A DNA stretch of 41,193 nucleotides, from contig JAGXGV010000101.1 of assembly GCA_024636635.1 (NCBI GenBank), positions 1-41,193 of the forward strand, given 5' to 3'. Both the position numbers and the translations under genes were made by a program. The stretch comes from Puniceibacterium sp. Its GTDB lineage: Bacteria > Pseudomonadota > Alphaproteobacteria > Rhodobacterales > Rhodobacteraceae. A model generated the notes under the pieces. The model saw nothing but the letters and a program-made list of their open reading frames with translations, did not search any database and was not told the DNA's origin. Positions 1,277 to 16,199 of this stretch are shown here, piece by piece; positions within the stretch are counted from its first letter, which is position 1, and every line of letters starts with the position of its first letter.

Positions 1277-3424
1277 TCACGCAGTGCCGTTGGGTCTGAT
1301 CGCAACAAGATCCCCGTGGGTATTGCGGCTACTGCTGGCAACTGGCGCGACGCTCATCCGCGCTGCGTTGGCGGTGACCGACAGCGAACTGGCCGCCATG
1401 GCGAGCGCGGCGGCACCCGGTCCGACATGGCCCAAGGCGAGTAGCGGCAGAAGCCCTGCGTTGTAAATGACTGCCAGCGCGAGGTTTTGGCGCCCGATCC
1501 GCCGCGCCTTGCGGGCAAGCGTCAGAATGGCGGGAAGGCGGTCAATCCCGCCCTGCTCGATCACCAGATCAGCGGTCAGCCGCGCCGAGGGGTGAGCCGA
1601 TGCCACCGAGATGCCGCAGGCGCTGGCAGCAAGGGCCGGGGCGTCGTTCACGCCGTCCCCCACGAAGGCCACCCGCCCCCCCAGCGCGCGGATCAGCGCC
1701 GCCTTCTGCTGCGGGGTCTGCCCGGCCGCGATATGGTCCGGGGCCACCCCCAGGGCCGTGCCCGCGCGCAATGTCGGCCCAACTGCATCGCCAGAAGCGA
1801 TGTGGATGCCAAGGCCCCACCGCCTGAGGGTTGCAAGAACGGGGGCCGCCTCGGGCAGGATCCGGTCGGCAAAGGTCAGGCGGCCGAGCAGCGCACCGTC
1901 GCGCGTCACATGCAGAACCGTGCCCGTTGCGTCTGCCTCGGCGGCAGCGCTGACGCGGATGTGCCCACCCCCGTCGTCCACCGCCTCCGCATGACGGTCG
2001 GCGCGCTGGCCCCCAGGTCCGCGTTCACCCGTGACAGCGGTGATGGCACGCGCCAGCGGATGGGTCAGCCCGGTTTCGGCCAGCGCGGCGCTATTCATCA
2101 GCATCTCACGGCTGACCCCGGGTGCGGGGCTGGCGGATACAAGCCGTGGCTGGCCTTCTGTCAGGGTACCGGTCTTGTCGAGGACAACCGTCGTGATGGC
2201 GGCCAGCCGCTCGAAAGCCTCCGGTTCGCGGATGCGTAGACCCTGCTGCCCGGCCACCGCCGCGGTGTGCATCCGCACCAGCGGCACGGCCAGCGCCAGC
2301 GCGCATGGACACAGGCCGACTATCACCGTCAGCGCGGTGACAAGGGCCGGAAAAACGTCGTCGCCCCGCAGCAAGCCGAAGGCAAGCGTGGCAAGGGCCA
2401 AAACCGGCATGGCGCGGGTCATGGCCGCGGCCCACCGGTCCGACAAACCTGCCTCCGCCCCACCACGGGCGATTTCCAGCGCGATGGCCCCGCCGATCCG
2501 GTCGATGTCGCGGTCGCCCGGTTCCCGGTCCGCGCGCAGGGTCAGGCGCCGTTCCAGATTGATGCTGCCCGCCGCGACCCGGTCGCCGGGACCGACCGCC
2601 ACGGGGCAGGCTTCGCCGGACAGGACGGCGCGATTGACAAGGCTGTGGCCGGAGGTCACGACGCCATCCACCGTGACGGCCGCACCTGCATCGACAATGA
2701 CGTCCGCATCGACCGGCACCTGTGCCGCCGGTTGCAGGACGCGGTTCGCCCCGATCCGGACCTGCGCCATGTCGGGGGCGGCCTGCTGCATGGCGATCAA
2801 GGCGCCAAGGGCCGCGCGGCGTCCCTGCAGATCGATCAGACGCGCGAGCAGCAGGAGCATGATCAGCATGGCCGCCGCGTCGAACCAGACCTCGGACCGG
2901 CCCTGCGCCAGTGCGGCCACCGACAGGACCACAGCACCCAGCGTTCCTGTCGTGATCAGAAGGTCCATCGTAGGTTCACGCAGTTGCAGCGATTTCCACC
3001 CCATCCACAGAATCCCGCGCCCGGCCCACAGGACCGGCAGGCCAAAGGCGCCGGACGCCGCAGCCAGCCACCAAGCGGTGCGCGGGTCAAGCGGGGTGGT
3101 ATAGAGAACGATGGCAATGGCCATGCTCCACATGCCCGTCAGCGCCGCGACGGCCAGCCGGATGGCGGTGTTCGTCATCTGTGCCTGAAGACCCTGGATC
3201 AGGTCTTCGGGACGGTGCCGGTCAACAAGGCGGTATCCCGCCTTCTGCACGGCGTCTGCGATGGCGCTGCGATCAAGGCTGGCATCATCCCAGTCCAGCA
3301 GGACGGACCCGGTCAGATGATGGACCCGCGCCATCCGCAAGCCGGGCAACAGCGACAGGTGCCGCTGCAACCCACGGGCGCATCCGGCACAGGCCATGCC
3401 GTCCACGGCAAACAACTGCCGCAT
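1277..3424 (-). CDS. ccoI: Heavy-metal (Cu) P-type ATPase, CcoI/FixI-like
   Basis: This 715-residue membrane pump has the domains of a P1B-type ATPase in order. It has an N-terminal metal-binding GMACAGC motif (Cys12, Cys15) and an A-domain loop with SGE (269-271) instead of the usual TGE. The transmembrane CPC motif lies at 372-374, the phosphorylation motif DKTGT at 416-420, HP at 455-456, and the hinge GDGVND at 589-594. A last membrane pair carries YN and SSLSVTANA. CPC indicates Cu(I) transport. As the fifth gene behind ccoN/ccoO-like genes, six bases after tsdA, it most likely supplies copper to CuB of the adjacent oxidase, the role of CcoI/FixI. A general CopA-type efflux role is the alternative; the gene position favours CcoI. 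Confidence 0.8.
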   Translation of the reverse strand: MRQLFAVDGMACAGCARGLQRHLSLLPGLRMARVHHLTGSVLLDWDDASLDRSAIADAVQKAGYRLVDRHRPEDLIQGLQAQMTNTAIRLAVAALTGMWSMAIAIVLYTTPLDPRTAWWLAAASGAFGLPVLWAGRGILWMGWKSLQLREPTMDLLITTGTLGAVVLSVAALAQGRSEVWFDAAAMLIMLLLLARLIDLQGRRAALGALIAMQQAAPDMAQVRIGANRVLQPAAQVPVDADVIVDAGAAVTVDGVVTSGHSLVNRAVLSGEACPVAVGPGDRVAAGSINLERRLTLRADREPGDRDIDRIGGAIALEIARGGAEAGLSDRWAAAMTRAMPVLALATLAFGLLRGDDVFPALVTALTVIVGLCPCALALAVPLVRMHTAAVAGQQGLRIREPEAFERLAAITTVVLDKTGTLTEGQPRLVSASPAPGVSREMLMNSAALAETGLTHPLARAITAVTGERGPGGQRADRHAEAVDDGGGHIRVSAAAEADATGTVLHVTRDGALLGRLTFADRILPEAAPVLATLRRWGLGIHIASGDAVGPTLRAGTALGVAPDHIAAGQTPQQKAALIRALGGRVAFVGDGVNDAPALAASACGISVASAHPSARLTADLVIEQGGIDRLPAILTLARKARRIGRQNLALAVIYNAGLLPLLALGHVGPGAAALAMAASSLSVTANAARMSVAPVASSSRNTHGDLVAIRPNGTA

Positions 3425-3430
3425 GGCGGA

Positions 3431-4513
3431 TCAGTTCTGCGGCTCTGCGGCAGACGGCGTCGCCATTGTCGCCGCCCGTGCGGGGGACGGACCCGTCCCC
3501 TGCCCCAGCAGCACCCCGTTCACGACCTGACCATAGAGGATCTCGTCCCCGTCGTGATTGGCAAGGCGGTTTTCCTCGATCGTGCCGGTCTGGCGGGGGT
3601 CCCTGGGGCGTTCGTGGCTGTCTAGATAGGCGGCCACATCCCAGGCCTCCTGATCGGTTAGGCTGCCCGGCTGCGACAGGGGCATGTTGTTCTTGATGAA
3701 CGCCGCCGCCGTATCGATGCGTGACATGCCGGCCCCCCAGTTGTAGCTGTCGGGCCCCCACAGGGGCGGAAAGGTGTAGTCGCCGTTGATGTCGCGCTGA
3801 CCCTGCCCGTCCTCGCCGTGGCAGACGGCACAGTTGGCCGCGAAGACATCCGCGCCGCGGGCCAGGTCATATCCGCCTTCGGGTTTCGGCACCTTGCCAA
3901 AGCCGATCCCGTCCAGCGACACGTTGGTCGGGGCTTTGCTGGCCAGCCAGAAGAAATAGCTTTCTAGATCGCGGTAGATGTCGTCGCCATGCGGCGGCGG
4001 GCCGCCGGCGGGCGAATACTGGGCGTTCATCGAATAGGTGAAACAGCCCATCACCCGATCTTCCATCGTGTTGATCTGATCGTTCTTGGCGCGATATTTC
4101 GGATAGGTCACCCAGGCGGCCCACATCGGGGCCGACAGGGGGTGACGCCCCCCATCAAGGTGGCAGTTCGAACAGGACAAACCGTTGCCGACGTGATCCC
4201 CCGCGTTGGTCGCGGTGTTGGTGAAGATCGCCTCGCCCCGGCGGACGGCATCGCCGAAGGGGCTGTCAGGGATGGCGTCGCGGGCGGGCGGCGTGAATTG
4301 ATCGTCCGGCGTGGTCGCAGCGGCCGTCTCTTCGATGGATGATCCGGCACCGATCAGCCACCGGGGCACGACATCAAGCTGCACCGCCGCCGTCGCCAGC
4401 GCGATCAGGGCAAGTCCACCGCCTGCGGCGTAGATAGCCTTGCGCGTCCCGCCGCCCGACTGCGCATCGCGCGGCGTGTCGGAGGCGCGGTCCCTGGGGT
4501 CATTGGTCATCAT
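3431..4513 (-). CDS. tsdA: TsdA-type di-haem thiosulfate dehydrogenase
   Basis: A 360-residue di-haem cytochrome c. Residues 25-46 form a hydrophobic segment that could be a signal anchor. Haem-binding motifs are CSNCH (114-118) and CAVCH (228-232). The family hallmarks are present: TNTATNAGDHVGN before haem 1, a GCF cysteine (Cys157) at the position that ligates the active-site haem in TsdA, FPPLWGPDSYNWGAGM, and NNMP with a candidate Met ligand (Met277). TsdA joins two thiosulfates into tetrathionate in the periplasm, passing electrons to c-type cytochromes; some homologues work in reverse. Its start overlaps the end of the tri-haem cytochrome gene by 14 bases, with GGAG upstream. Residue ligation is assigned by family analogy. 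The location inside an oxidase operon favours the oxidative direction. Confidence 0.85.
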   Translation of the reverse strand: MMTNDPRDRASDTPRDAQSGGGTRKAIYAAGGGLALIALATAAVQLDVVPRWLIGAGSSIEETAAATTPDDQFTPPARDAIPDSPFGDAVRRGEAIFTNTATNAGDHVGNGLSCSNCHLDGGRHPLSAPMWAAWVTYPKYRAKNDQINTMEDRVMGCFTYSMNAQYSPAGGPPPHGDDIYRDLESYFFWLASKAPTNVSLDGIGFGKVPKPEGGYDLARGADVFAANCAVCHGEDGQGQRDINGDYTFPPLWGPDSYNWGAGMSRIDTAAAFIKNNMPLSQPGSLTDQEAWDVAAYLDSHERPRDPRQTGTIEENRLANHDGDEILYGQVVNGVLLGQGTGPSPARAATMATPSAAEPQN

Positions 4514-5741
4514 CTGTCTCCATACGGGTCATCGTGGCTGCAACGGCCGGCACCGGGGGCCGCGTGGCAAGATAGTCTGCGACGGCGCGGCGGTCCTGCG
4601 TCGACAGCGCCCCGGAAATCTCGGCCATCAGGCCAAGCGGATCGTTGTGGCGTTCGCCTCCGGCCCAGTTGGCCAGCTGGGCGGCGGTATAGGGGGCATG
4701 TTGGGCCGCGAGACCGGGAAAACCGGGCGCAACGCCAAAGCCGGACGCGCCGTGGCAGGTGAAGCAGGCCGGGACACCGATCGACCAGTCGCCCTGAAGG
4801 GCCAGCTCCTCGCCTCGCGCAAGATCGCCGGACAGCACCGCGCCTGCATTGCTGGGCACGCGCAGGGTGGCGAAATATGTGCCGAGGGCGGTCATTTCGC
4901 CTTTCGTCAGGCCAGAGGCGACCAGGTGCATCGATTCGTTGACACGCGTGCCTTCGCGGAAGTCGTGCAGCTGCTTGGTGATGTAGGCGGCAGGCAGGCC
5001 GGCAAGACGCGGTGTGGTTTCGTCGCCCTGCCCCAGATCACCGTGGCAGCTGGCGCAGGACCAGACTTCATCACGGCCCGCGAACACGAGTTGCAGCACA
5101 TCGGCGTCATCCCTGGGCGCGGCGGATGGGGCTGGCATCGGCGGTTGCGGAGGCAGGGACGGGATCAGCCTTGCCAGTTCCATGCCGCCGGCAAAGCTGC
5201 CCAGATCGGCCACCTCGCCGCGCAGGTCGGTCACGTCGTCAGCCGACGACGCGGCGCCGTCCGGGCCGTTCGCCCAGCGGGTCGTGACATAGGACGCCAG
5301 CCGCGCGATTTCCGCGTCGCTCAGCGCACTGGCAAAGCTGGGCATGTGACCGTCGTAGGTCGCGTCGGCCACGGTCAGCGGTCCGTCGATGCCGCGCAGC
5401 AGGATGCGGGCAATTATCCCCGGCCCTGCCGCCACGACTTCCGATCCCGCCAGCGGCGGCACCGCATCGCGCAGACCTTCGCCGTCGGGCTGGTGGCAGG
5501 TGGCGCAGTTCGCCTCGAACAGGGACGCCCCTTCGTCGGGGGTCACGTTGGCCAATGCCTCGCTGTCCTCCGCGCGGTCGTTCAGCGACACGCGGACGCT
5601 GTCGCCCGTATCATACAGCATCAGCACCCCCCAGAAGGCCAAGGCGATGGCGATCCAGATGACCGGCAAGGGCACCCCGGCTTGTTCCTCGTAAGGCTCG
5701 TAGATCTCGGCGGGACGTTTCGGGTCGGATTTGTGCGCCAT
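4500..5741 (-). CDS. Membrane-anchored tri-haem cytochrome c (CcoP-like role)
   Basis: A 413-residue protein with one N-terminal membrane helix (about residues 24-43) and three c-haem motifs: CATCH (79-83), CASCH (229-233) and CFTCH (326-330). The first is in a class I cytochrome c domain with GHMPSF supplying a likely Met ligand. The second and third form a tandem resembling di-haem cytochrome c4/c553-type modules, separated from the first by a Pro/Ala-rich linker (about 195-212). It starts 2 bases after the ccoO-like gene ends and overlaps tsdA. Classic CcoP has two haems and two N-terminal helices; neither a CcoP nor a CcoQ gene is present here, so this protein probably serves as the electron-entry subunit. 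That role is inference from position. Confidence 0.75.
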   Translation of the reverse strand: MAHKSDPKRPAEIYEPYEEQAGVPLPVIWIAIALAFWGVLMLYDTGDSVRVSLNDRAEDSEALANVTPDEGASLFEANCATCHQPDGEGLRDAVPPLAGSEVVAAGPGIIARILLRGIDGPLTVADATYDGHMPSFASALSDAEIARLASYVTTRWANGPDGAASSADDVTDLRGEVADLGSFAGGMELARLIPSLPPQPPMPAPSAAPRDDADVLQLVFAGRDEVWSCASCHGDLGQGDETTPRLAGLPAAYITKQLHDFREGTRVNESMHLVASGLTKGEMTALGTYFATLRVPSNAGAVLSGDLARGEELALQGDWSIGVPACFTCHGASGFGVAPGFPGLAAQHAPYTAAQLANWAGGERHNDPLGLMAEISGALSTQDRRAVADYLATRPPVPAVAATMTRMETDDDQ

Positions 5742-5743
5742 GC

Positions 5744-6388
5744 TCAGCGGGCCTCCTCTGCAGGAGTGGGTTCAGGACCTTCGGAACTACCGTAACCATG
5801 GTCCCGCAGGCCGTTTGTCGGCGCGGGATAGGTCCGGTCGAGCGCCACCAGGTAGGCGGTCAGATCAAGCGCCTTCTGCGACGCGACGATGACGCCATCC
5901 GCAGGTGCATGGGCGGCAGGCAGCGCCACGACGACATCGCCCGGTCCGGCCGTATCTTTGTGGTCGAACAGATATGGGTAGCTCGGCATGATCGACCAGT
6001 CAAAGATCGCGCGGGGCTGATACAGATGGGTCAGATGCCAGCCTTCCGAAGGTAGACGCGCGCTCACGTTCAGAAGGTCCGGCCCGGTCCGCATCGTGCC
6101 CAGCTGGTGCGGCTGGTCATAGGCATAATCCTCTGCGACTGAAGGACGCCCCCAGCCGCGTTCGCCATCGGGGGCTTGGTCGCCGGATCGCGGTTGCTGG
6201 CTGTGGCAGTAAAGGCACCCGAGCGAAACATAGACCTCACGCCCGCGTGCCTCTGCCTCTGTGTAGGGGCGCAGACCCTCGGGTGCGGGGCGGGCGTTGA
6301 TCTGGATACCCGGCGCGATGACCAGCATCAGCGTCGCGAACGCCAGAATGGCAAGCGCGAGGATTGAAAGAGGCAGGTAGCGGTTCAT
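5744..6388 (-). CDS. ccoO: cbb3-like oxidase mono-haem subunit (CcoO/FixO family)
   Basis: A 214-residue protein anchored by one N-terminal helix (about 5-27), with the periplasmic CcoO signature: haem motif CLYCH (58-62) followed by SQQPRS, the block AYDQPHQLGTMRTGPDL, GWHLTHLYQPR, and a Met ligand in SIMPSYPYL (Met134). It carries electrons to the catalytic subunit of a C-family haem-copper oxidase. The sequence differs from standard CcoO, which usually has CYNCH and SQMIRPF, and so belongs to a divergent branch. The start ATG overlaps the stop of ccoN as ATGA. Shorter than some CcoO proteins, but complete. Confidence 0.82.
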   Translation of the reverse strand: MNRYLPLSILALAILAFATLMLVIAPGIQINARPAPEGLRPYTEAEARGREVYVSLGCLYCHSQQPRSGDQAPDGERGWGRPSVAEDYAYDQPHQLGTMRTGPDLLNVSARLPSEGWHLTHLYQPRAIFDWSIMPSYPYLFDHKDTAGPGDVVVALPAAHAPADGVIVASQKALDLTAYLVALDRTYPAPTNGLRDHGYGSSEGPEPTPAEEAR

Positions 6389-7962
6389 TCTGCGGCCACT
6401 GGTGCTTGGGTATGCCGCGGCGCGTAAAAGGCGAGCCCGAGGAGGTTCACGGCAAAGACCAGATGGCCGAGCGTCATGAGCGAGCCGCCGATGCTGCGCG
6501 CCTCAAGATAGGGTTTCATCAGTTCGACCGATTCGGAGAAGGGTCGTGTGGCGTCCAGCATCGCCAGACCCTGCAGGACACCGCCGATGGTAAGCGAGAA
6601 GAAATACACCGCAAACCCGATCGTGACCAACCAGAAATGCGCCTTCAGCAGGCCGGGCCACGGGAACGCACGCCCCGTCGCCCGCGGCAGGATGTAGTAG
6701 GCCGCCCCGAACATGACGATCGACACGAAAGCATAGGCCCCCAGATGGGCATGGGCGACCGTGTAATGGGTAAAGTGGGTGATCGAATTGACCGAGCGCA
6801 GCGCCTCGATCGAGCCCTGAAAGGAAGCCATCGTATACATCAGCGCCCCGAACGAGATGAACCGCAGCGGGACCGATTCCTTCAGCGCCCACAGGTTCTG
6901 CGCGACCGTGACGTGCTGGTTGATCGCCACCGCGATCACCGGCAGGAACATCATGACTGAATGGACAACAGACAGCGTCACGACCCAAGTCGGCACCGGT
7001 CCGCCGATCAGGTGATGAATCCCGACCTGGCTGTAGAACAGCGCCAGCCCCCAGAAGCCCAGCAGCGACACGGCGTAGCTGTAGATCGGTCGCCCGATGA
7101 TCTTGGGGATCAGATAGTAGGCCGTGCCCACGCCCAGCGGTGTCAACCACAGGCCCAGCACGTTGTGGGCGAACCACCAGTTGACGGTTGCCTCCTCGAC
7201 ACCGGAATACAGGCCGGGGATGTTGGCGACAATGAACAGCACCGGAAACCACAGGATCGCCGCAAGGAAATACCAGCCCGAGACATAGATGTGATGCACG
7301 TCGCGCGCCCGCGCCGTGCGCACCAATGGCGCGATGAAGCAGGCACCGGCAGCGGCGAGGAGCATGTCGATTTGCCACGGGATCTCCAGCCATTCCTCGC
7401 CATCGGTCCAGCCGCTGGCGATGGCCAGCCCGCCAAGCGCAACGGCGATGTTCCACAGGACTGCACCGATCAGCACCAGCCGCGGGCTCTTCAACGGTAC
7501 GTGGAAGATTCGCGGGATGATCCACATGACTGAGGCCAGCCCCGACAAAGACAGCCAGCCGTAGATCACGAGGTTAAGGTGCAGCGTCCGCATCCGACCG
7601 AAGGTCAGTGGCGCAGACTGGTTCAGCCAGTCCGGCAAATGCAGCTTCATCGAGGCCACAAGCCCGAAGATAGACCCCAGAACCAGCCACACCGTCGCCG
7701 TTCCCAACAGGATGATCACGGGTCTGGCCGAGACCGCGTCGATGCCCGCAGCGACCGGGTCGAAAACATGGCGCCGCTCCGCGTCACCCGCTTCCGTTCC
7801 CTGATTGTCGATCCGCCCCTGTTCGCCATCGGCAAAAATGGTTTCGGCATCGCCTTGGTCCACCGTGATCTGGCGATTCGAAATTGCCCAGATCAAAAAG
7901 GCAAGCGCGGCCAGCGACACGACGAAGCTGAGCGCCAGCATGAGGCCAAGAGTGATGGGCAA
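6385..7962 (-). CDS. ccoN: cbb3-like haem-copper oxidase catalytic subunit (CcoN family)
   Basis: A polytopic protein of about 525 residues and the catalytic core of a C-family terminal oxidase. Visible ligand motifs include RTLHLNLVIYGW (low-spin haem His), WWFAHNVLGLW (CuB His), VGIHHLIGG (the CuB His pair) and TVAHAHLGAYAF (haem histidines). I place the start at a TTG at 7962 because GGAG lies 7 bases before it; an earlier in-frame start at 7998 has no such site. Between the first two helices is an acidic loop rich in Asp/Glu/Gln. It heads a compact five-gene operon without ccoQ or a normal ccoP. Proton pumping and oxygen affinity cannot be read from sequence alone. Confidence 0.85.
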   Translation of the reverse strand: MPITLGLMLALSFVVSLAALAFLIWAISNRQITVDQGDAETIFADGEQGRIDNQGTEAGDAERRHVFDPVAAGIDAVSARPVIILLGTATVWLVLGSIFGLVASMKLHLPDWLNQSAPLTFGRMRTLHLNLVIYGWLSLSGLASVMWIIPRIFHVPLKSPRLVLIGAVLWNIAVALGGLAIASGWTDGEEWLEIPWQIDMLLAAAGACFIAPLVRTARARDVHHIYVSGWYFLAAILWFPVLFIVANIPGLYSGVEEATVNWWFAHNVLGLWLTPLGVGTAYYLIPKIIGRPIYSYAVSLLGFWGLALFYSQVGIHHLIGGPVPTWVVTLSVVHSVMMFLPVIAVAINQHVTVAQNLWALKESVPLRFISFGALMYTMASFQGSIEALRSVNSITHFTHYTVAHAHLGAYAFVSIVMFGAAYYILPRATGRAFPWPGLLKAHFWLVTIGFAVYFFSLTIGGVLQGLAMLDATRPFSESVELMKPYLEARSIGGSLMTLGHLVFAVNLLGLAFYAPRHTQAPVAAE

Positions 7963-7993
7963 GAAGGATCTCCAAGTCAGGCAGAAACGGAAA

Positions 7994-8037
7994 TTCAAGA
8001 TTAACTTGAAGCTTCAATCTTAAGGCTACCTTAAGGT
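7994..8037 (-). promoter_or_regulatory. Cluster of palindromes upstream of the oxidase operon
   Basis: Four dyads are packed in 44 bases directly upstream of ccoN: TTCAAG-N5-CTTGAA (7994-8010), TTGAAGCTTCAA (8006-8017, perfect), CTTAAG (8019-8024) and ACCTTAAGGT (8028-8037, perfect). Such crowding is typical of operator DNA; the spacing of the first resembles MerR/SoxR-family sites but is one base longer than the SoxR box. No FNR-type TTGAT-N4-ATCAA box was found. Which regulator binds is unknown. Confidence 0.5.
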
Positions 8038-8236
8038 TGGGCGTATGTCAGCCCCCCTAGCGGGTGGGTGACAGCACGCTCTCCGCGGTGATGCGCAGAA
8101 TAAGCCTGCGGTGCCGCAGACGGGTTTAGTCTATTGTCGGGCAGAGGTGAAACGTCTGCTGCACAGGACGAATGCGTAGGATAGCAGGCCTGTTGCTCCC
8201 ACAAAGTTGCCTCATGCTGCATCAAATCATAGGAAT

Positions 8237-8838
8237 TCAGGAAACTTTGCGAGTGTCGGGCAGATCGATCCAGATGGTCTGTCCCCGGTCCGGTTGCCCC
8301 ATTTCCAGATGCCCCCCCCCATTCGCGCCACGGCGGCGGCAGTAATCGAGACTCCCAGCCCGTTCCCCCTGACCGGTCGGCGGGGCTCCGCGCCAGAAGC
8401 GTTCGGTTACACGGGCATGATCCTGCGGCAGGATGCCCGGCACTTTATCGCTGATGATAAATCGCAGTCCCCCGGAGCGCACTTCGGCGCTCAGGCGGAC
8501 GGTGCCATCTGGTGGCGAATGCTGGATCGCGTTCTCCACCAGATTGCGCAACGCGCTGTGGATCAGCACGCGAGGACCATGCAGCACCGGCAGGTCGCGC
8601 CCCGCGATCACGAGGTGGACCCGTGCAGCGGCGGCCTGCAGGTAGGCCGCCTGCGCGATGTCGGCCATGAGGGCGGCGGGGTCCAGCGGTTCGGCCGCAG
8701 CGGCCTCGTAGTCGATAGCCGCCAGATCCAGAAGTTGGCGGACCATCCGGTCGCTGCGGTCGACGGATGTGGCGATCGCCGTCAGCGCTCCGTCGCGGGT
8801 CGCCGCATCCTCTGCCCGTTGCGCGATCTTTGTCGCGG
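8237..8838 (-). pseudogene. Sensor histidine kinase fragment (QseC-like), truncated and frameshifted
   Basis: Only the C-terminal half remains. From the upstream side it reads KIAQRAED, SVDRSDRMVRQLLDLAAID (end of the dimerisation domain), then ALRNLVENAIQHSPP (N box), a degraded G1 region, FWRGA, and a terminal HLEMGQPDRG. The usual G2 box, GNGLGVSI, is found only in another frame: one extra base in the C-run at 8365-8369 leaves the frame and the nine-C run at 8312-8320 brings it back. The sensor part and the HELRTP histidine are missing, cut at a junction with an lgt fragment near 8838. It cannot work as a kinase. No response regulator gene is adjacent. Confidence 0.75.
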
Positions 8839-9045
8839 GCTTTTGTCGAGTTTTTCCGACAGCCGGACCTCGAATTTGTCAGCGTTGACAATCCGGTGGG
8901 CTATGCCTTGCAGATTGGGGACTGCGGTCTGACGACGGGCAAGGTGCTGTCCTTGCCGATGGTGATCGTCGGACGGGCGAGGATCGGGTGGTCTTTGCAG
9001 CAGGTCCGTCATGACCCACAGGCTGCCTCAAGCACCACAGCGTGA
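8838..9045 (+). pseudogene. lgt: C-terminal fragment of prolipoprotein diacylglyceryl transferase
   Basis: The plus-strand frame contains FVEFFRQPD, then VDNPVGYALQIG, then GLTTGKVLSLPMVIVG. This is the end of Lgt, where VEFFRxPD and LTxGQxLSLPM are conserved. Everything before FVEFF is missing, and the tail after IVG looks degraded. Lgt is an essential membrane enzyme of about 270-300 residues, so a functional copy presumably exists elsewhere and this is a displaced piece. It lies back to back with the kinase fragment, marking a rearrangement breakpoint close to 8838. Confidence 0.65.
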
Positions 9046-9136
9046 CGCCGTCGGATATGGAACGCACGCAATGGCGCGCAAGACCGGATCAATAAGGTGT
9101 TCAGCATTACGGCGACGCCAACCCTAGCCGCACCTG

Positions 9137-10181
9137 ATAGGTTGCAGGATGGTGCGGGTGTTGAAGCGCTGCCGCTCGACCATATTTCGCGAGCTCAAGC
9201 GCAATCATTTCTCCGATCCATGCATGCCGAAGTGCGATGGCTATTACGGTGCTGCCGCGCAGTTGCGGACGGCCAATCGCCGTGCGAGGGAGCGCAAACT
9301 CATCCGCCATCCCGACTTGCTCGCGCGCGTCATCGAGAGGTTGAAGAACGGATGGACCCCCGAGCAGATCTCCAACCGAATGCAACATAAAGTCGCTCGG
9401 CTGCGCGTGTGCCAGGAGACCATCTACCGCTACTACTCGCGCGAGGGAATCCGGGATGACCTGCGATGGTATCTGCCCAACCACTGCTCGGCACGCCGTC
9501 CGCGGCACGCGCGCAAGCGTTTGCCGCCCAGATTCCACCGCGATGTCAGCATCCTGTTCCGGCCGGACGACCTCGCGCACCGGCGTCAGTTCGTCCATTG
9601 GAAAGGTGACCTCGTCCTATTCAAGCAAAGCTTTGGCCAGTCCAACGTCACCTCGCTGGTAGAATGTGTCAGCCGATTCGCGCTGCTGCTGAAAACCCCC
9701 AGCAGGCACAAGATGCCGGTCATGGTCAAGATCGTGGCAGCGATCCGCGACCTGCCGTATCCGGCCCAGAAGTCGATCACCTTAGATCGGGGTACCGAGT
9801 TTGTCTCGCGGCCGCACCCGCAGGCCGAAATCGGCACGCACACGTGGTTCTGTGATCCCTCCTCACGGTGGCAGAAGGGCACGGTCGAGAACACCAACCG
9901 ACGCGCCGGTCGCTGGCTGCCGCGCACCTTTGATATTCGCAAGCTCTCGGATCACGAAATCAAGGTGAAAGGCTTCTGTGGTTGCCGCCCGTGATGCAAG
10001 AAGTTTCTGACCTTGTTGACGTGTGATCGAAAGCGGTCTTCTGTCAGGCCTCGTTATGCGGCATTTCCAGAAGCCTTTCAAGGTGATTTGCGACCGGCTC
10101 AACAATACGCCCCGCAAATGCCTGCGCTGGAAGACCCCCGTAGAGGTCTGCCGCGAAAAGATGACGGAGAAATTGCGATGA
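9137..10181 (+). pseudogene. IS30-family transposase, 5'-truncated and split by a small insertion
   Basis: The visible protein has STIFRELKRN (helix-turn-helix), YYGAAAQ, GWTPEQIS, RVCQETIYRY, HWKGDL, SITLDRGTEF, WFCDP and KGTVENTNRR, the ordered motifs of IS30 DDE transposases. The usual first 30 or so residues are missing. At IKV the frame is broken by a 109-bp insertion with a 9-bp target duplication (9960-10086). After removing 118 bases the frame continues ICDRLNNTPRKCLRW to a stop at 10179-10181, the normal IS30 ending. Losing the 5' end and gaining the insertion both inactivate it. Left and right element ends were not identified. Confidence 0.85.
9969..10077. mobile_element. 109-bp MITE-like element with terminal inverted repeats
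   Basis: The element starts AAGGCTTCTG and ends CAGAAGCCTT, a perfect 10-bp inverted repeat that extends imperfectly to about 20 bp (16 of 20 matching, both ending in TGCCGC). It is flanked on each side by TCAAGGTGA (9960-9968 and 10078-10086), a 9-bp target-site duplication. It has no coding capacity, so it must have been moved in trans. A 9-bp duplication with ends close to GGCTT is reminiscent of the IS903 group of IS5-family elements, but the parent element is not in this window. Confidence 0.8.
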
Positions 10182-10225
10182 GACCCCTACCCTCACACCG
10201 ACAAGAGTCGCGCTTCCGATATCGC

Positions 10226-11104
10226 TCAAATCAGGAGCCTGTCGACAAACGCCTCTGCGGCAAGCGAGAGTTTTTTCCCCTTCCGCCACGCGACATGCCA
10301 ATGGCGAATGATAGGGAACGGCGCTACGGTCAATTCCACCAAGTAGCCGTGCCGGAGTTCCAGCTTCACGGTTCCGCGGCTCAGGACCGCGATACCCAGA
10401 CCCGCGATGACACCTTGCTTGACCGATTCGTTCGCGCCCAGTTCCATCCTGACATTGGGTGTCGTGTCCGCAGCTTCGAAACTGCGCTCTGCGGCAAGTC
10501 TGGTGCCGGAGCCACTTTCGCGCATCAGAAATGGGTATGCCGCAAGGTCGCGCATCGTCAGGCCAGATCGCGCCGTCAGCGGATGGTCGCGGGGTGCCAC
10601 GACCACCAAGGGGTTTTCGGAATACCGCTCGATCTCGGCGTCCATGTCTGGCGGCGGTGTGCCCAGGATGTAGAGGTCATCGGCATTGGTTGCAAAACGC
10701 GACAGCAAGTCTTCGCGGTTCCCGACGGTCAGCGCGATCTCGATCCCCGGAAACGCGCTGGTGAAGGCGCCGATGCGGGCGGGAATTTCATATTTCGCGG
10801 TGGATACGACAGCCAGTCGCAACCGCCCCGTGACAAGGCCCTGCAACTCGGCCAGCGTCATGTCGAGATTTTCGGTCTCCTCCATCAGCCGCTGTGCGGA
10901 TTTCAGGACGATCTCTCCCGCCTGGGTCAGGGATAGGGTCTTGCCCAGACGGTCGATGAGCTTGTGCCCGAGGTGATCCTCCAGTTGGCGGACCTGCGCG
11001 AAGGTGGCCGGCTGGGTCAGGTTCAACGCCTTGGCCGCGCGCGTGTAGGACAGCTGCGCCGCAACCTCCCGAAAGATCTGCATTTGCCTCAGGGAATACC
11101 TCAT
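10226..11104 (-). CDS. cbbR: CbbR-type LysR regulator, divergent from cbbLSQO
   Basis: A 292-residue LysR-family activator. Residues 1-60 are the winged helix-turn-helix (LRQMQIFREVAAQLSYTRAAKALNLTQPA), followed by the effector-binding domain with VSTAKYEIP, SGSGTR and the GANESVKQGVIAGLGIAVLS block shared by CbbR proteins, which sense metabolites of the Calvin cycle. It is transcribed away from cbbL with about 125 bases between the starts, the classical arrangement. The start is the only one giving the usual N-terminus, but no Shine-Dalgarno sequence precedes it; a perfect dyad reaches into the start codon, suggesting autoregulation and possibly a leaderless message. Confidence 0.9.
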   Translation of the reverse strand: MRYSLRQMQIFREVAAQLSYTRAAKALNLTQPATFAQVRQLEDHLGHKLIDRLGKTLSLTQAGEIVLKSAQRLMEETENLDMTLAELQGLVTGRLRLAVVSTAKYEIPARIGAFTSAFPGIEIALTVGNREDLLSRFATNADDLYILGTPPPDMDAEIERYSENPLVVVAPRDHPLTARSGLTMRDLAAYPFLMRESGSGTRLAAERSFEAADTTPNVRMELGANESVKQGVIAGLGIAVLSRGTVKLELRHGYLVELTVAPFPIIRHWHVAWRKGKKLSLAAEAFVDRLLI

Positions 11105-11157
11105 GAATAGAGCATGGTCTATTCATGTCATAAAAACAATTCATTTTAGATTATTGA
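11103..11157. promoter_or_regulatory. cbbR-cbbL control region with two dyads
   Basis: Two symmetrical motifs occupy the intergenic DNA. ATGAATAGA (11103-11111) and TCTATTCAT (11118-11126) form a perfect 9-bp inverted repeat with a 6-base centre, overlapping the cbbR start codon. TCA-N11-TGA (11141-11157) contains the T-N11-A core recognised by LysR-type proteins and sits on the cbbL side. Together they look like recognition and activation sites for CbbR. A clear sigma-70 promoter could not be assigned; TTGACC at 11154-11159 is a possible -35 box without an obvious -10. Confidence 0.55.
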
Positions 11158-11229
11158 CCGGGTGTGGTGTGCTGACTCCGAGGAAGTTGAACGGGCCGTC
11201 TGGCGGTCCACCGGGAGGAGATGACGGCC

Positions 11230-12660
11230 ATGAATGTGCAGCCGAAGAAGAAGTATGACGCTGGGGTAAAGGATTACCGGTCGACGTATTGGGAGCCTGA
11301 CTATTCGGTCAAGGAGACCGATATTCTGGCTGTCTTCAAGGTCATCCCCCAGGACGGTGTCCCGCGCGAGGAGGCGGCGGCAGCGGTCGCCGCCGAGAGT
11401 TCGACGGGAACCTGGACGACCGTCTGGACCGACCTTCTGACCGACCTTGACCACTACAAGGGCCGCGCCTATCGGATAGAGGACGTACCGGGGCAGGATG
11501 AGGCCTTCTATGCCTTCATCGCCTATCCCGCCGACCTGTTCGAGGAAGGTTCGGTCGTGAACGTGTTCACGTCGATCGTTGGCAACGTGTTCGGCTTCAA
11601 GGCCGTGCGCAGCCTGCGGCTGGAAGACGTGCGCTTTCCGATCTGGTTCGTCAAAACCTGTTTCGGTCCGCCGCACGGCATTCAGGTCGAGCGCGACAAG
11701 ATGGACAAATACGGCCGTCCGCTTCTGGGCTGCACCATCAAGCCCAAGCTGGGTCTGTCGGCCAAGAACTATGGTCGTGCGGTATACGAGGTGCTGCGCG
11801 GCGGCCTCGATTTTTCCAAGGACGACGAGAACGTCAACTCTCAGCCGTTCATGCGCTGGCGCGACCGTTTCCTGTTCTGCCAAGAAGCGATTGAGAAGGC
11901 GCAGGCGGAAACGGGCGAGCGCAAGGGTCACTACATGAACGTGACCGCACCGACTGTGGAGGCGATGTTCCAGCGCGCCGAGTTCGCCAAGGAACTTGGA
12001 ACGCCGATCATCATGTCCGACTACCTGACGGTTGGCTGGGCGGCGCACAACTCGCTGTCCAAATGGTGCCGTGACAACGGAATGCTGCTGCACGTCCACC
12101 GGGCCATGCATGCCGTGATGGACCGCAACCCGAACCACGGGATCAACTTCCGCGTTCTGGCCAAGATGCTGCGTCTGCTGGGCGGTGACCACCTGCATTC
12201 GGGGACGGTTGTCGGCAAGCTGGAAGGCGACCGCAACGCGACGTTGGGCTGGATCAACCTGATGCGCGACAAGTTCGTCAAGGAAGACCGGTCGATGGGG
12301 GTGTTCTTCGATCAGGACTGGGGCTCCATGCCGGGGGTCTTCCCGGTTGCATCCGGCGGGATACATGTCTGGCACATGCCGGCGCTGGTCTCGATCTTCG
12401 GCAACGACTCGGTCCTGCAATTTGGCGGCGGCACACTGGGCCACCCCTGGGGCAATGCGGCGGGCGCCGCGGCCAACCGTGTCGCGTTGGAGGCCTGCGT
12501 GCAGGCGCGTAACGAAGGTCGCGAGATCGAGAAGGAAGGCAAGGACATCCTGATCGCTGCCGCGAAGCATTCGCCCGAACTGAAGTCGGCGATGGAGACC
12601 TGGAAAGAGATCAAGTTCGAGTTCGACACCGTCGACAAGTTGGACGTGCAGCACCGCTGA
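11230..12660 (+). CDS. cbbL: RuBisCO large subunit, form IA (green-like)
   Basis: This 476-residue protein catalyses carboxylation of ribulose 1,5-bisphosphate. Catalytic residues are intact: Lys171 in TIKPKLGLS, Lys197 in DFSKDDE (carbamylated Lys, followed by the metal ligands Asp and Glu), and loop-6 Lys330 in [12 protein letters not shown]. The sequence follows the form IA pattern, unlike the red-type form IC common in Rhodobacterales. The GGGAGGAG site directly abuts an ATG at 11221 but lies 9 bases before the ATG at 11230, so the later start is chosen. cbbS follows after 32 bases, then cbbQ and cbbO, the IAq arrangement. No carboxysome shell genes are nearby, so the enzyme is probably cytosolic. 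Confidence 0.96.
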
Positions 12661-12692
12661 ATTCTCAAACGCACACACAAAGGACCAACACG

Positions 12693-13049
12693 ATGAGCTA
12701 CATTCAGGACTACCCCTCGCGTCTTTCCGATCCTGCCTCGCGCAAGATGGAGACGTTCTCCTACCTGCCGGAGATGACCAAGACGCAGATTCGGGCACAG
12801 GTGCAATGGATCGTCGATCATGGTTGGAACCCGGGCATCGAACATACCGAGCCGGAAAACGCCACCGACTACTATTGGTACATGTGGAAACTGCCGATGT
12901 TCGGCGAAACCGATGTCGATGCGATCCTTGCTGAGATCGAGGAATGCCACAAGGCCAACCCCAAGCACCATGTCCGCCTGCTGGGCTACGACAACTTCAC
13001 CCAAAGCCAAGGCGCGAACATGGTCGTGCGTCGCGGCAAGATGGTCTGA
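12693..13049 (+). CDS. cbbS: RuBisCO small subunit, form IA
   Basis: A 118-residue protein that caps the L8 core to form the L8S8 enzyme. Recognisable blocks are [10 protein letters not shown] near residue 20, [27 protein letters not shown] and a C-terminal [12 protein letters not shown]. Length fits green-type small subunits; it lacks the C-terminal beta-hairpin extension of red-type ones. It starts with ATG after a moderate AAAGGA site and is followed by a strong hairpin that separates it from cbbQ, so it is likely co-transcribed with cbbL at high level. Confidence 0.95.
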
Positions 13050-13053
13050 CACC

Positions 13054-13082
13054 GCGCGGCCCGCATACCCTGCGGGCCGCGC
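13054..13082 (+). terminator. Strong hairpin between cbbS and cbbQ
   Basis: GCGCGGCCCGCA (13054-13065) pairs perfectly with TGCGGGCCGCGC (13071-13082) around a 5-base loop. It begins 4 bases after the cbbS stop codon and has no following T-run. It could protect the cbbLS message from 3' decay or partly terminate transcription, giving much more RuBisCO than CbbQ/CbbO, which are needed in small amounts. Confidence 0.65.
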
Positions 13083-13114
13083 CAATCGACGCTGACAAAC
13101 GGGAGAATGCAACC

Positions 13115-13918
13115 TTGAAGGACGTGCTTGACGACTTTCGCGTGACGAAAGCCCCCTACTGGCGCGAGACGGGCGACGAGATCGCCCTGTTCACGGCAGC
13201 CTGGGATGCGCGCATTCCGATCATGCTGAAGGGGCCGACCGGCTGCGGCAAGACACGGTTTGTCGAACATATGGCCTGGAAACTGGGCCGTCCCCTGGTG
13301 ACTGTGGCCTGCAACGAGGACATGACGGCATCGGACCTCATCGGGCGCTATCTGCTGGATGCCGATGGCACGCGGTGGCAGGACGGGCCACTGACCTTTG
13401 CCGCCCGCCATGGTGCGATCTGCTATCTCGACGAAGTGGTGGAAGCGCGTCAGGACACGACGGTCGCAATCCATCCGCTAACCGACGACCGCAGGGTGCT
13501 ACCCCTGGAGAAGAAGGGCGAATTGCTGAAGGCGCATCCTGATTTCCTGATTGTGATCAGCTACAACCCCGGCTACCAGTCCCTGATGAAGGACCTGAAG
13601 CAATCGACCAAGCAACGCTTTGGCGCGATGTACTTCACCTGGCCCGGCGCGGATGTGGAAACCGAAATTGTTGTCCATGAGGCGGGCGTGGATGCCGACA
13701 CGGCCCGGAAGCTGGTCGAAATCGGCGCGCGGTCGCGCAACCTAAAGGGGCATGGGCTGGACGAAGGTGTCTCCACGCGGATGCTGATCCATGCCGGACG
13801 CCTCATCAAGGGCGGGATCGCACCAAAGGCGGCCTGCTCCATGGCGCTGGTCCATTCGATCACCGACGATTCTGACATGCGGGATGCGCTTGATGCCGCC
13901 GTCTCCACCTGGTTCTGA
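13115..13918 (+). CDS. cbbQ: RuBisCO activase AAA+ subunit CbbQ
   Basis: A 267-residue MoxR-type AAA+ ATPase that, with CbbO, remodels inhibited form I RuBisCO to release tight-binding sugar phosphates. The P-loop GPTGCGKT lies at 40-47, Walker B CYLDE at 103-107, and the sensor/SRF-type region VISYNPGYQ and KQRFG follow. The start is a TTG at 13115 with GGGAG 9 bases upstream; the upstream ATG in the same frame lies inside cbbS. The end overlaps cbbO by 26 bases, which indicates translational coupling of the two partner proteins. Confidence 0.92.
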   Translation: MKDVLDDFRVTKAPYWRETGDEIALFTAAWDARIPIMLKGPTGCGKTRFVEHMAWKLGRPLVTVACNEDMTASDLIGRYLLDADGTRWQDGPLTFAARHGAICYLDEVVEARQDTTVAIHPLTDDRRVLPLEKKGELLKAHPDFLIVISYNPGYQSLMKDLKQSTKQRFGAMYFTWPGADVETEIVVHEAGVDADTARKLVEIGARSRNLKGHGLDEGVSTRMLIHAGRLIKGGIAPKAACSMALVHSITDDSDMRDALDAAVSTWF

Positions 13919-16199
13919 TGCCCTGCCCGCAGGGCACGGCGATCTGATCGAAACCCTTTCGCCGCCCGTCGTGGCGGTCCTGCTGGCCAGTCTGCCAGAC
14001 GCGCTGCGCAAGCTTTCGCCCAAGGGACTGGACACCTGGCTGGGCGGCACCGCTTCATTGACGCGGTTGGGGCGCGGCGACGAAACCGTCGTTGCCTGGA
14101 TCGAGGCGGCGCCCGCCCTTGCGCATGATCTGGGCGAGGACGTGTTGACCGACCTGCTACCGCTGATCCTCGGGTTTGCCTCGCGCACCTCGGGTGCCGT
14201 CATTGCCAGACTGCTTGATACGGCGCCGCGCGCGGCCCGTCGGTTGGGCGATGCGACCTTGTTCCGGCAGTATCTGCGGTTCATAGAACATCTGCTGGCC
14301 CGCGCGCCGCGTGCCGTCCGCCCGATGCTCGACCACCTCGCCGACCTGCTGGAAGTGCTCACGCTGGGCGGGCTGCGTCGCTGGGCCGACTGGGGCGTCG
14401 ATGCACACCGGACCGACGTCAAGGAATTGCAGCGCTACTTTACGCTCGACAGCGAGGAATCGCGCGCCGTCATCCAGCGCGAGCGCAAGGGCACGCTGCT
14501 GGTTGACGTGCAGCGGCGGCTGACGATGTATCTGCGGGCGCTGTGGGGTCGTGATTTTATGATCACGCCGACGGCGGGCGATTTCGAAAGCCGCACCGGC
14601 CTCCGCCCTTACTATGAGAATTACAGCCTGCATCTGCCCGACGCGCTGGACGACTGGCACGGCGAACTGGCGCTGGACCTGTTTCGCGCCCAATCGGCGC
14701 ATCTGGCAGCCCATATGGCCTGCATGCGCAAGCCGATCCAAGGCGAAGGGCTGAATGCGCTGCAAACAACCTGCATCGGGCTGGTCGAGGACGCCCGCGC
14801 CGAGGCGCTGGCCGTCGCGCGCCTGCCCCGCCTGCGGGACCTTTGGGCGCGATTCCACACCGAGACGGCCAGCGGCATGGCGGGAGAGTTCGATCAAATC
14901 GCCCGCGCGCTGCTGATGCCGGATCGTCCCGCCGAGAGCGCGCTGGCCGCTTGGGCGCAAGAGGATTTCACGGCACGGGATCTGACCGACATCGACGCCG
15001 CGCGTGATCTGGGGCTGCGCCTGGCGGATCGCCTGCGGGCAAACTCGTTTTCCGCCTATACCGATCACCCGTCCTGCCCGTATCGCTGCGACAACCGCCT
15101 GCTGTGGGACTTCGAGGAGCTGGATTTCGACACGGGCTATCTGCCGCAGCCGCAGGTGCGCAGACATGTCTCCGTGTCCGAGATGGTGAACGAGGTCGAG
15201 GTCGAGACCGCGGGCGACGACGCCCAGGAAATCTGGGTCCAGTCCGCCGAATTCTTCGACGACGACGGACAGAGCTTCAACGAAAAAGAGGGCAAAGCCC
15301 AGGTCGCCCCGCCGGTTCTTTATGACGAATTCGATCACACGATCCAGATGATGCGGCCCGCCTGGGCGATAATTCTGGAACGGCGCGCGAGGCTGGGCGA
15401 TCCGGCCGGGGCAGCGGCGATCCTGGACACACACCGCCCGGTCATGCAGCGGCTGAAGCACCGCCTGGATGCCATGCGGCCGCAAGGGGTCCAGCGCATC
15501 CGCAAGCTGGAGGATGGCGACGAGATCGACATCGCGGCGGCGATCACGGCGGCGATCGACATTCGCATGGGCCGTCAGCCGGATCCCCGCGTGATGATGC
15601 GTCAGATCCGCAAGACCCGCGACACCGCCGTGATGGTCCTGCTGGACCTGTCAGAATCCACCAACGATCCAGTCGGCGCTGACAGCACGGTCATGGACCT
15701 AACCAAATCCGCCTGCATCCTGCTGTCGGAGGCGATCAGCCGGGTCGGCGACGCCTTTGCCATCCACGGCTTCTGTTCCGACGGGCGCGCGCAGGTCTAT
15801 TACGAGCGGTTCAAGGATTTCGACCAGCCGTGGGAAGATCTGGCGAAGGCCCGGCTGATGGGCGCCGAGGGGGCGCTGTCGACCCGCATGGGCACCGCGA
15901 TCCGCCATGCCACCGCGCAGATGTGCAAGGTCAAGGCCACGCGCAAGCTGATGCTTGTGCTGACCGACGGTGCGCCTGCCGACATCGACGTGCGCGATCC
16001 GCAGTATCTGCGCGCGGATACCCGCCGCGCGGTGGAGGAAGCGCAGCAAAGCGGTGTGACGCCCTTCTGCTTGACGCTGGATCCGGGGGCCGACACCTAT
16101 GTCCGCCGCATCTTTGGCCAGAACAACGCGATGATCCTCGACCGGGTGGAGCGTCTTCCCGAACGCCTACCGCAACTTTACGCGGCGCTTACCCGCTGA
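13893..16199 (+). CDS. cbbO: RuBisCO activase adaptor CbbO (VWA domain)
   Basis: A 768-residue protein with a long helical N-terminal part that binds CbbQ hexamers and a C-terminal von Willebrand A domain, roughly the last 200 residues, with a MIDAS motif DLSES followed by LTDGAPAD. The domain is thought to dock on an acidic surface residue of RuBisCO. Length is normal for CbbO. The ATG at 13893 is chosen for its coupling to cbbQ; alternatives further upstream lie deep within cbbQ. The stop lies 11 bases inside the convergent second cbbR gene. Confidence 0.9.
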   Translation: MPPSPPGSDALPAGHGDLIETLSPPVVAVLLASLPDALRKLSPKGLDTWLGGTASLTRLGRGDETVVAWIEAAPALAHDLGEDVLTDLLPLILGFASRTSGAVIARLLDTAPRAARRLGDATLFRQYLRFIEHLLARAPRAVRPMLDHLADLLEVLTLGGLRRWADWGVDAHRTDVKELQRYFTLDSEESRAVIQRERKGTLLVDVQRRLTMYLRALWGRDFMITPTAGDFESRTGLRPYYENYSLHLPDALDDWHGELALDLFRAQSAHLAAHMACMRKPIQGEGLNALQTTCIGLVEDARAEALAVARLPRLRDLWARFHTETASGMAGEFDQIARALLMPDRPAESALAAWAQEDFTARDLTDIDAARDLGLRLADRLRANSFSAYTDHPSCPYRCDNRLLWDFEELDFDTGYLPQPQVRRHVSVSEMVNEVEVETAGDDAQEIWVQSAEFFDDDGQSFNEKEGKAQVAPPVLYDEFDHTIQMMRPAWAIILERRARLGDPAGAAAILDTHRPVMQRLKHRLDAMRPQGVQRIRKLEDGDEIDIAAAITAAIDIRMGRQPDPRVMMRQIRKTRDTAVMVLLDLSESTNDPVGADSTVMDLTKSACILLSEAISRVGDAFAIHGFCSDGRAQVYYERFKDFDQPWEDLAKARLMGAEGALSTRMGTAIRHATAQMCKVKATRKLMLVLTDGAPADIDVRDPQYLRADTRRAVEEAQQSGVTPFCLTLDPGADTYVRRIFGQNNAMILDRVERLPERLPQLYAALTR

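Follow-up and report, generated by a model that had tools for sequence, protein, structure and literature searches.

The stretch analysed here, called the window, comprises the 41,193 nucleotides of contig JAGXGV010000101.1 of Puniceibacterium sp. (assembly GCA_024636635.1). Its minus strand carries, from 7962 to 1277, an operon that probably encodes a dedicated electron chain from thiosulfate to oxygen. An earlier note on this DNA had read the order ccoN, ccoO, tri-haem cytochrome, tsdA and copper P-type ATPase gene and placed the operon at 3431-7962; the order was borne out by our analysis, while the ATPase gene carries the operon to 1277. The ccoN-like gene (6385-7962, 525 aa; COX1 match, E 2e-81) starts with TTG, with a GGAG seven bases ahead, and is predicted to encode the catalytic subunit of a C-family haem-copper oxygen reductase of divergent sequence. 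It overlaps by 4 bases a ccoO-like gene (5744-6388, 214 aa; FixO match, E 1.5e-31) for a mono-haem membrane cytochrome c subunit with one CXXCH. After a gap of 2 bases follows the gene of the tri-haem cytochrome (4500-5741, three CXXCH), which overlaps by 14 bases tsdA (3431-4513), the gene of a two-haem thiosulfate dehydrogenase/tetrathionate reductase with two CXXCH and a SoxA-TsdA Pfam domain. Finally, 6 bases on, a copper-type P1B ATPase gene (1277-3424), encoding an HMA domain with CAGC and a CPC motif, closes the operon.

The tri-haem protein comprises two parts with an approximate boundary. Its C-terminal part (about residues 206-413, 4500-5126) is a TsdB-like two-haem c4-type cytochrome: residues 226-399 align with the TsdB half of 5lo9, the TsdBA fusion of Marichromatium purpuratum (E 2.5e-34), which was the first match in a search of solved-structure sequences. 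Foldseek with a predicted model also placed 5lo9 on top, followed by the cytochrome c4 of the P. aeruginosa bc1-cbb3 supercomplex. The two CXXCH motifs of this part, together with Met271 and Met372, are invariant in 21 rows, and its coding position, directly ahead of tsdA, is that of a TsdB gene. By alignment and predicted fold, the C-terminal two-haem part is TsdB, which corrects the earlier reading in this detail. The N-terminal part (about residues 1-205, 5127-5741) bears a P-x-E ... P-x-P anchor motif, and its first ~160 residues form a hydrophobic helix and one haem domain. The ccoP model TIGR00782 matched it with an E of 9e-16, under the model's cut-off, and no FixP_N domain was listed at E 5 in 13 proteins; we therefore call it the CcoP-position subunit, by place and likeness only. 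The operon had been described as lacking ccoP and ccoQ. A canonical CcoP with two haems is indeed absent; its place is taken by a subunit with one helix and one haem, fused to TsdB, the anchor in this position being mono-haem or TsdB-bearing in the rows compared. The genes are spaced too tightly for a separate ccoQ to fit between them, a statement limited to the operon, as the genome beyond it was not searched for one.

The same joining of TsdB to the oxidase recurs in related loci. The comparison held 63 Tsd-type rows, that is, 62 different loci, since L167 (G986) and L054 are the same contig with identical sequence and both entered the CcoN tree. In 49 of these rows (48 of the 62 loci), TsdB and the oxidase anchor are parts of one protein. 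In 37 rows (36 different loci), the window included, anchor, mono-haem domain and TsdB form one chain, and in 12, of which 11 are from Betaproteobacteria, the anchor carries TsdB without the mono-haem domain. A pattern search recovered the anchor motif and helix in 62 of the 63 Tsd-type rows (L079 was missed) and in 18 of the 26 other rows of the clade. These architectures suggest that TsdB either replaces the oxidase's own cytochrome domain or is added to it. The fusion is the strongest hint that TsdB hands electrons on to CcoO, because it ties TsdB covalently to the CcoP-position anchor of the oxidase.

In the proposed chain, the Cys-ligated haem of TsdA would be the site where two thiosulfates are coupled to give tetrathionate, as the family and conserved residues of the protein suggest. 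Electrons would then pass from haem 2 of TsdA to the TsdB domain, over the extra haem where present to haem c of CcoO, and on to haem b and the b3-CuB site of CcoN, where O2 would be reduced. Quinone and bc1 would be by-passed, the oxidase may pump protons, and the P-type ATPase probably supplies its copper. The self-contained route from TsdA through the tri-haem protein to CcoO and CcoN, as first put forward, fits the conserved gene order, the congruent single clades described below and the TsdB-anchor fusion; its details at TsdB and at the CcoP-position subunit had to be revised. Ubiquinone lies at about +0.1 V. As the tetrathionate/thiosulfate couple lies at +198 mV (PMC5146829, accessible text), it would be too positive for the quinone pool, and a direct path to cytochrome c and an oxidase would suit it.

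The CcoN-like protein is an oxygen reductase by sequence, because the six His ligands of haem b, haem b3 and CuB and the helix-VII Tyr310, six residues ahead of the CuB His pair, occur without exception in all 89 rows of the clade. Its best solved match was P. stutzeri CcoN (E 2e-66). We take the roles of the residues to be those in the P. stutzeri protein, their places having been read from its alignment with the window CcoN. The surroundings of the active site differ from those of canonical CcoNs. At the position of P. stutzeri Glu323, 9 of 9 canonical rows have Glu and 83 of the 89 clade rows have Gln; a new Glu lies four residues beyond this site in 84, and the Asp340 equivalent is His or Gln in all 89. 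In the window CcoN, the first two are Gln382 (codon 6817-6819) and Glu386 (codon 6805-6807). The clade can thus be described as C-family oxidases with active-site surroundings that differ at a conserved Glu. This Gln, the low identity to canonical CcoN (30-37%) and a score of 268 bits in the NCBIfam ccoN equivalog, whose cut-off is 583, would be in keeping with a protein acting on nitric oxide (NO) or another substrate. We consider this hardly credible and rejected an NO reductase, in view of the invariant Tyr and His ligands, of the ccoO encoded beside ccoN across the clade (one row, L102, has none) and of a solved NorB match at E 1.6e-5 as against 2e-66 for CcoN.

The trees, quick IQ-TREE runs with some long branches, group the Tsd-type oxidases into one clade of 68 rows (SH-aLRT 100), of which 63 have tsdA. 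From the CcoN tree we omitted duplicates and near copies (L001, L013, L042, L096, L097, L098, L103, L104, L115, L116, L117 and L119). One row without tsdA, L033, is on a contig that ends 1.5 kb on; in another, L102 (8932-11269, a Marinobacter metagenome-assembled genome), an ATPase remnant directly follows ccoN and the intervening genes were not found. The TsdAs of the operons likewise form one clade (SH-aLRT 99) of 65 rows, comprising the 63 operon rows, L148 and L149; none of the 26 lone TsdAs included in the tree belongs to it. The TsdA tree omitted L001, L042, L103, L115-L131, L135-L138 and L140, most of them short versions of places that longer stretches represent, and TsdA-like matches given no locus number stayed outside it. 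Over 62 pairs, the CcoN and TsdA distances correlate with an r of 0.84, a value reached in 0 of 2000 permutations, which we read as a sign of joint descent and transfer of the two proteins. The wider clade stays separate (99) when 23 CcoNs of other cbb3 types are added.

We also considered whether the clade could be the second cbb3 type of two-copy genomes. This was rejected with reserve, as the CcoNs compared, mostly of family f188, are 32-36% identical and lie outside the clade. This comparison tree used one CcoN per genome, 23 in all, of which L168 (37%) was placed unsurely; several f188 genomes gave two CcoN matches, and the 'distal' cbb3 type is not named for certain.

The window TsdA has the TsdA half of 5lo9 as its best solved match (E 1e-90), against an E of about 1e-47 for A. 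vinosum TsdA, and shows the haem-1 ligand Cys157, the haem-2 ligand Met277 and an N-terminal hydrophobic segment. Cys157 is kept in 63 of 63 operon TsdAs, and the second CXXCH and Met277 in 62, L055 having one CXXCH only. The accessible text of PMC5146829 describes TsdA as bifunctional, with tetrathionate reductase activity in C. jejuni, and reports that the related CccC donates electrons to a cb-oxidase. Together with the Asn-Met pair at haem 2, which resembles that of the C. jejuni enzyme (CjTsdA), this leaves a small probability that the operon TsdA is a tetrathionate reductase, or does no more than pass electrons to the oxidase in the manner of Campylobacter CccC, thiosulfate oxidation not being its main task. 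The same Asn-Met pair, however, is present in M. purpuratum TsdBA, for which that source names thiosulfate as the electron donor, and coupling to an O2 reductase would favour oxidation. Furthermore, the CccC residue that corresponds to the haem-1 Cys is Met (same source), and a CccC-like donor without the catalytic Cys was rejected on the invariance of this residue in the operon TsdAs.

Another TsdA-like protein was seen in the loci L035-L040, where, from ~2.4 kb upstream of ccoN, a tri-haem cytochrome of 446-450 aa is followed by a TsdA-like protein of 303 aa, which is 33-36% identical, forms its own clade and retains the haem-1 Cys. Genes similar to it lie further off in L025, L026, L042 and L166.

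The earlier note had proposed a search for conserved tsdA-ccoN neighbourhoods. In a scan of GTDB contigs, the best 79 loci of at least 539, together with seven added plasmid loci, held 87 ccoN copies of the clade, and tsdA follows 61 of them. Within those best 79 GTDB loci it accompanies 58 of 80 copies, a count that gives no prevalence figure. No ATPase was detected in 13 of the 61 tsdA-bearing copies, Thioclava and Alcaligenes being among them and others lying at contig ends. The Tsd-type rows span 25 named families and 34 named genera, and classes could be named for 56 of them (33 Alpha-, 11 Beta- and 12 Gammaproteobacteria). An arrangement confined to this genome is therefore refuted by relatives on plasmids and GTDB contigs. 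Even sampling shows the clade to be rare: a CcoN of the clade was found in at least 5 of the 398 genomes sampled from the phylum and at least 4 of 295 from the family, the window's own genome included in both, and in that genome alone among 385 of the class. These are lower bounds, as the best 3-5 candidates were scored per genome, and the ccoN remnant of G465 was missed in this way. TsdA-like matches were found in 43 of the 398 phylum genomes; of those placed in the tree, the ones that group with the operon TsdAs are from the window, G465 and G637. Among the 29 TsdA-like loci fetched from this sample besides the window, 18 have a two-haem TsdB-like gene beside tsdA.

The operon might also reflect shared regulation without wiring: TsdA and TsdB would deliver their electrons to a periplasmic cytochrome pool on which all oxidases draw, and the genes would share an operon since both activities are wanted together. 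A number of observations weigh against a dedicated chain, and the first of them speak directly for this alternative. In 14 of the 63 Tsd-type rows, an anchored mono-haem protein is accompanied by a separate TsdB gene. None of the 13 TsdB-TsdA pairs viewed over 14-16 kb in the phylum sample has a ccoN of the clade nearby. In G637, the tri-haem fusion and tsdA are kept (L149, contig C4, 6623-8875), and no oxidase of the clade was found in the genome (7 of 7 candidates scored). In G465, ccoO, TsdB, tsdA and the ATPase are kept, and ccoN is reduced to two ends (L148, contig C15, 460-5900). Since both genomes retain TsdB-TsdA without an intact oxidase of the clade, TsdA may work without it. Conversely, L065 and L068 have Tsd-clade oxidases with TsdB and no tsdA, and L084 has one with TsdB and the ATPase and no tsdA. 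Besides the clade CcoN, the window's own genome (174 contigs, 79% complete) encodes another one of the ordinary cbb3 kind (contig C20; the two are 33% identical), as well as a full SoxB (840 bits). Finally, the model of the tri-haem protein, built on the 21-row alignment, is of middling confidence (predicted local distance difference test, pLDDT, 74; predicted template modelling score, pTM, 0.52), and the bifunctionality of TsdA mentioned above points the same way. What stands against an unwired pair is the frequency of the TsdB-anchor fusion, including the rows in which TsdB has no mono-haem domain beside it, the congruence of the CcoN and TsdA trees, and the exclusion of the lone TsdAs from the operon clade. 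On balance we regard shared regulation without wiring as unlikely and prefer the dedicated thiosulfate:O2 chain.

The clade includes oxidases with other modules, namely with SCO-type proteins (Azoarcus, Cupriavidus and others) or with the ATPase only (mostly Marinobacter). On two Paraburkholderia plasmids (L029 and L031, ~9000-15870), the clade oxidase is followed by a mono-haem subunit, a P-type ATPase and a SorAB-like pair, comprising a molybdenum oxidoreductase and a cytochrome c, and SLAC1/TDT-type transporters are encoded in the same loci. This set is possibly a sulfite:O2 counterpart. As a tentative extension, which we hold with less confidence than the chain itself, the operon products may form one stable thiosulfate:O2 oxidoreductase complex in the membrane that amounts to a complete respiratory chain, with TsdA docked on TsdB, TsdB replacing the haems of CcoP, and neither quinone nor bc1 taking part. 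It would belong to a wider C-family clade with exchangeable donor modules (TsdBA or SorAB-like); whole units would have been passed from one class of Proteobacteria to another, with a QseBC-like two-component system often in control. A different meeting of the two partners was observed in L160 (G505, contig C73, 3747-8323), where another tsdA lies ~460 bases upstream of a canonical set of ccoN, ccoO and a two-haem, ccoP-like gene; tsdA and a cbb3 oxidase have come together independently here.

The intergenic region upstream of ccoN (7963-8236, minus strand) contains a tandem CTTAA-N6-CTTAA. Repeats of this type are typical of QseB/PmrA-type regulators. Perfect copies lie upstream of ccoN in 30 of the 63 Tsd-type rows, against 0.03 expected from first-order resampling of each sequence, the loci being related and the 30 therefore not independent; among the 26 other rows of the clade the one copy is in L033, itself of the Tsd clade. 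Of the Tsd-type loci, 57 span at least 11 kb, and 22 of these include a response regulator resembling the one in L053, as do 3 of 20 other loci, two of which (L033 and L102) belong to the Tsd clade. In Paracoccus indicus (L032), an intact kinase and regulator share the locus with the operon. The window retains the C-terminal end of a sensor histidine kinase (8237-8746, minus strand), 62% identical over the match to the intact P. indicus kinase, and an integrase-type (rve) open reading frame (9149-9994) lies some 400 bases beyond.

The window genes between 11221 and 40156 were named by eye from their translations. They include those for RuBisCO, other Calvin-cycle enzymes and cytochrome bd, and genes resembling those of SulP, sulfur transporters, persulfide dioxygenase and sulfide:quinone oxidoreductase; this content suggests a chemolithoautotrophic setting. 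At the contig end, 40972-41190 gave a weak SoxB-like match (36 bits) that runs up to the last bases. At 588-1136, an SBP_bac_11 solute-binding protein gene is probably broken, because its match is limited to positions 4-93 of the 227-position profile; a full-length solute-binding protein gene lies near the operon in L053.

The full-text literature search returned no description of the operon, in line with the earlier note's impression of a new composition; many journals lie outside its coverage, and a prior mention is possible. In Erythrobacter flavus 21-3, according to the accessible text of PMC7608252, the cluster D0Y83_01340-01450 rises with thiosulfate and includes tsdA (01395), a proposed tsdB ahead of it (01390) and a 5'-nucleotidase (01405), and deletion of tsdA almost completely stopped the formation of sulfur globules. 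In the Pelagerythrobacter locus L053, the order is ccoN, ccoO, tri-haem gene, tsdA and ATPase, then a 5'-nucleotidase gene on the opposite strand; this fits the spacing of the E. flavus tags, from which we infer that E. flavus carries this ccoN. Genes for 5'-nucleotidases adjoin the tsd operon in both L053 and L037. The word 'oxidase' is absent from the main text of both E. flavus 21-3 papers (PMC7608252 and PMC9426585). Guyparkeria SCN-R1, which carries the operon (L091), was reported to have a tsdA homologue of uncertain function, with no mention of the oxidase beside it in the accessible part of PMC9032823. The nearest printed idea we found is the suggestion that cbb3 oxidases might receive electrons from TsdB (PMC9237845, accessible part), and in the literature found the destination of the electrons from tetrathionate-forming thiosulfate oxidation is only guessed at (same source). 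The gene fusions seem to be an evolved answer, in which TsdB becomes part of a dedicated oxidase. If so, the operon would be a transferable respiratory module through which bacteria could use thiosulfate as an energy source with no low-potential entry point, it may account for the electron sink of clusters like that of E. flavus 21-3, and its products would offer a compact complex for structural work.

The system shares with the cbb3-type CcoNO(Q)P oxidases the CcoN family, the oxygen-site ligands, the helix-VII Tyr, CcoO and a copper-type P-type ATPase beside the oxidase. It differs from them in its own clade, the lack of a two-haem CcoP and of room for ccoQ between the genes, the Gln at the position of Glu323 together with the additional Glu four positions further along, and the dehydrogenase borne by the operon. 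With M. purpuratum TsdBA (5lo9), the best solved match of both proteins, it has TsdA and TsdB in common; there TsdB is fused to TsdA, whereas here it is fused to the oxidase anchor and mono-haem domain, in an operon that includes the terminal oxidase. As judged by fold match, the P. aeruginosa bc1-cytochrome c4-cbb3 supercomplex (8smr) also places a c4-type two-haem cytochrome at a cbb3-type oxidase. That cytochrome presumably carries electrons from bc1, whereas the c4-like TsdB would carry them from TsdA and is covalently tied. A donor-specific dehydrogenase linked with a terminal oxidase is also found in the rus operon of Acidithiobacillus and in DoxBCE/DoxDA of Acidianus. The former couples Fe(II) to an aa3 oxidase and the latter thiosulfate, via quinone, to a quinol oxidase, with dehydrogenases and oxidase families unrelated to those of the operon described here.

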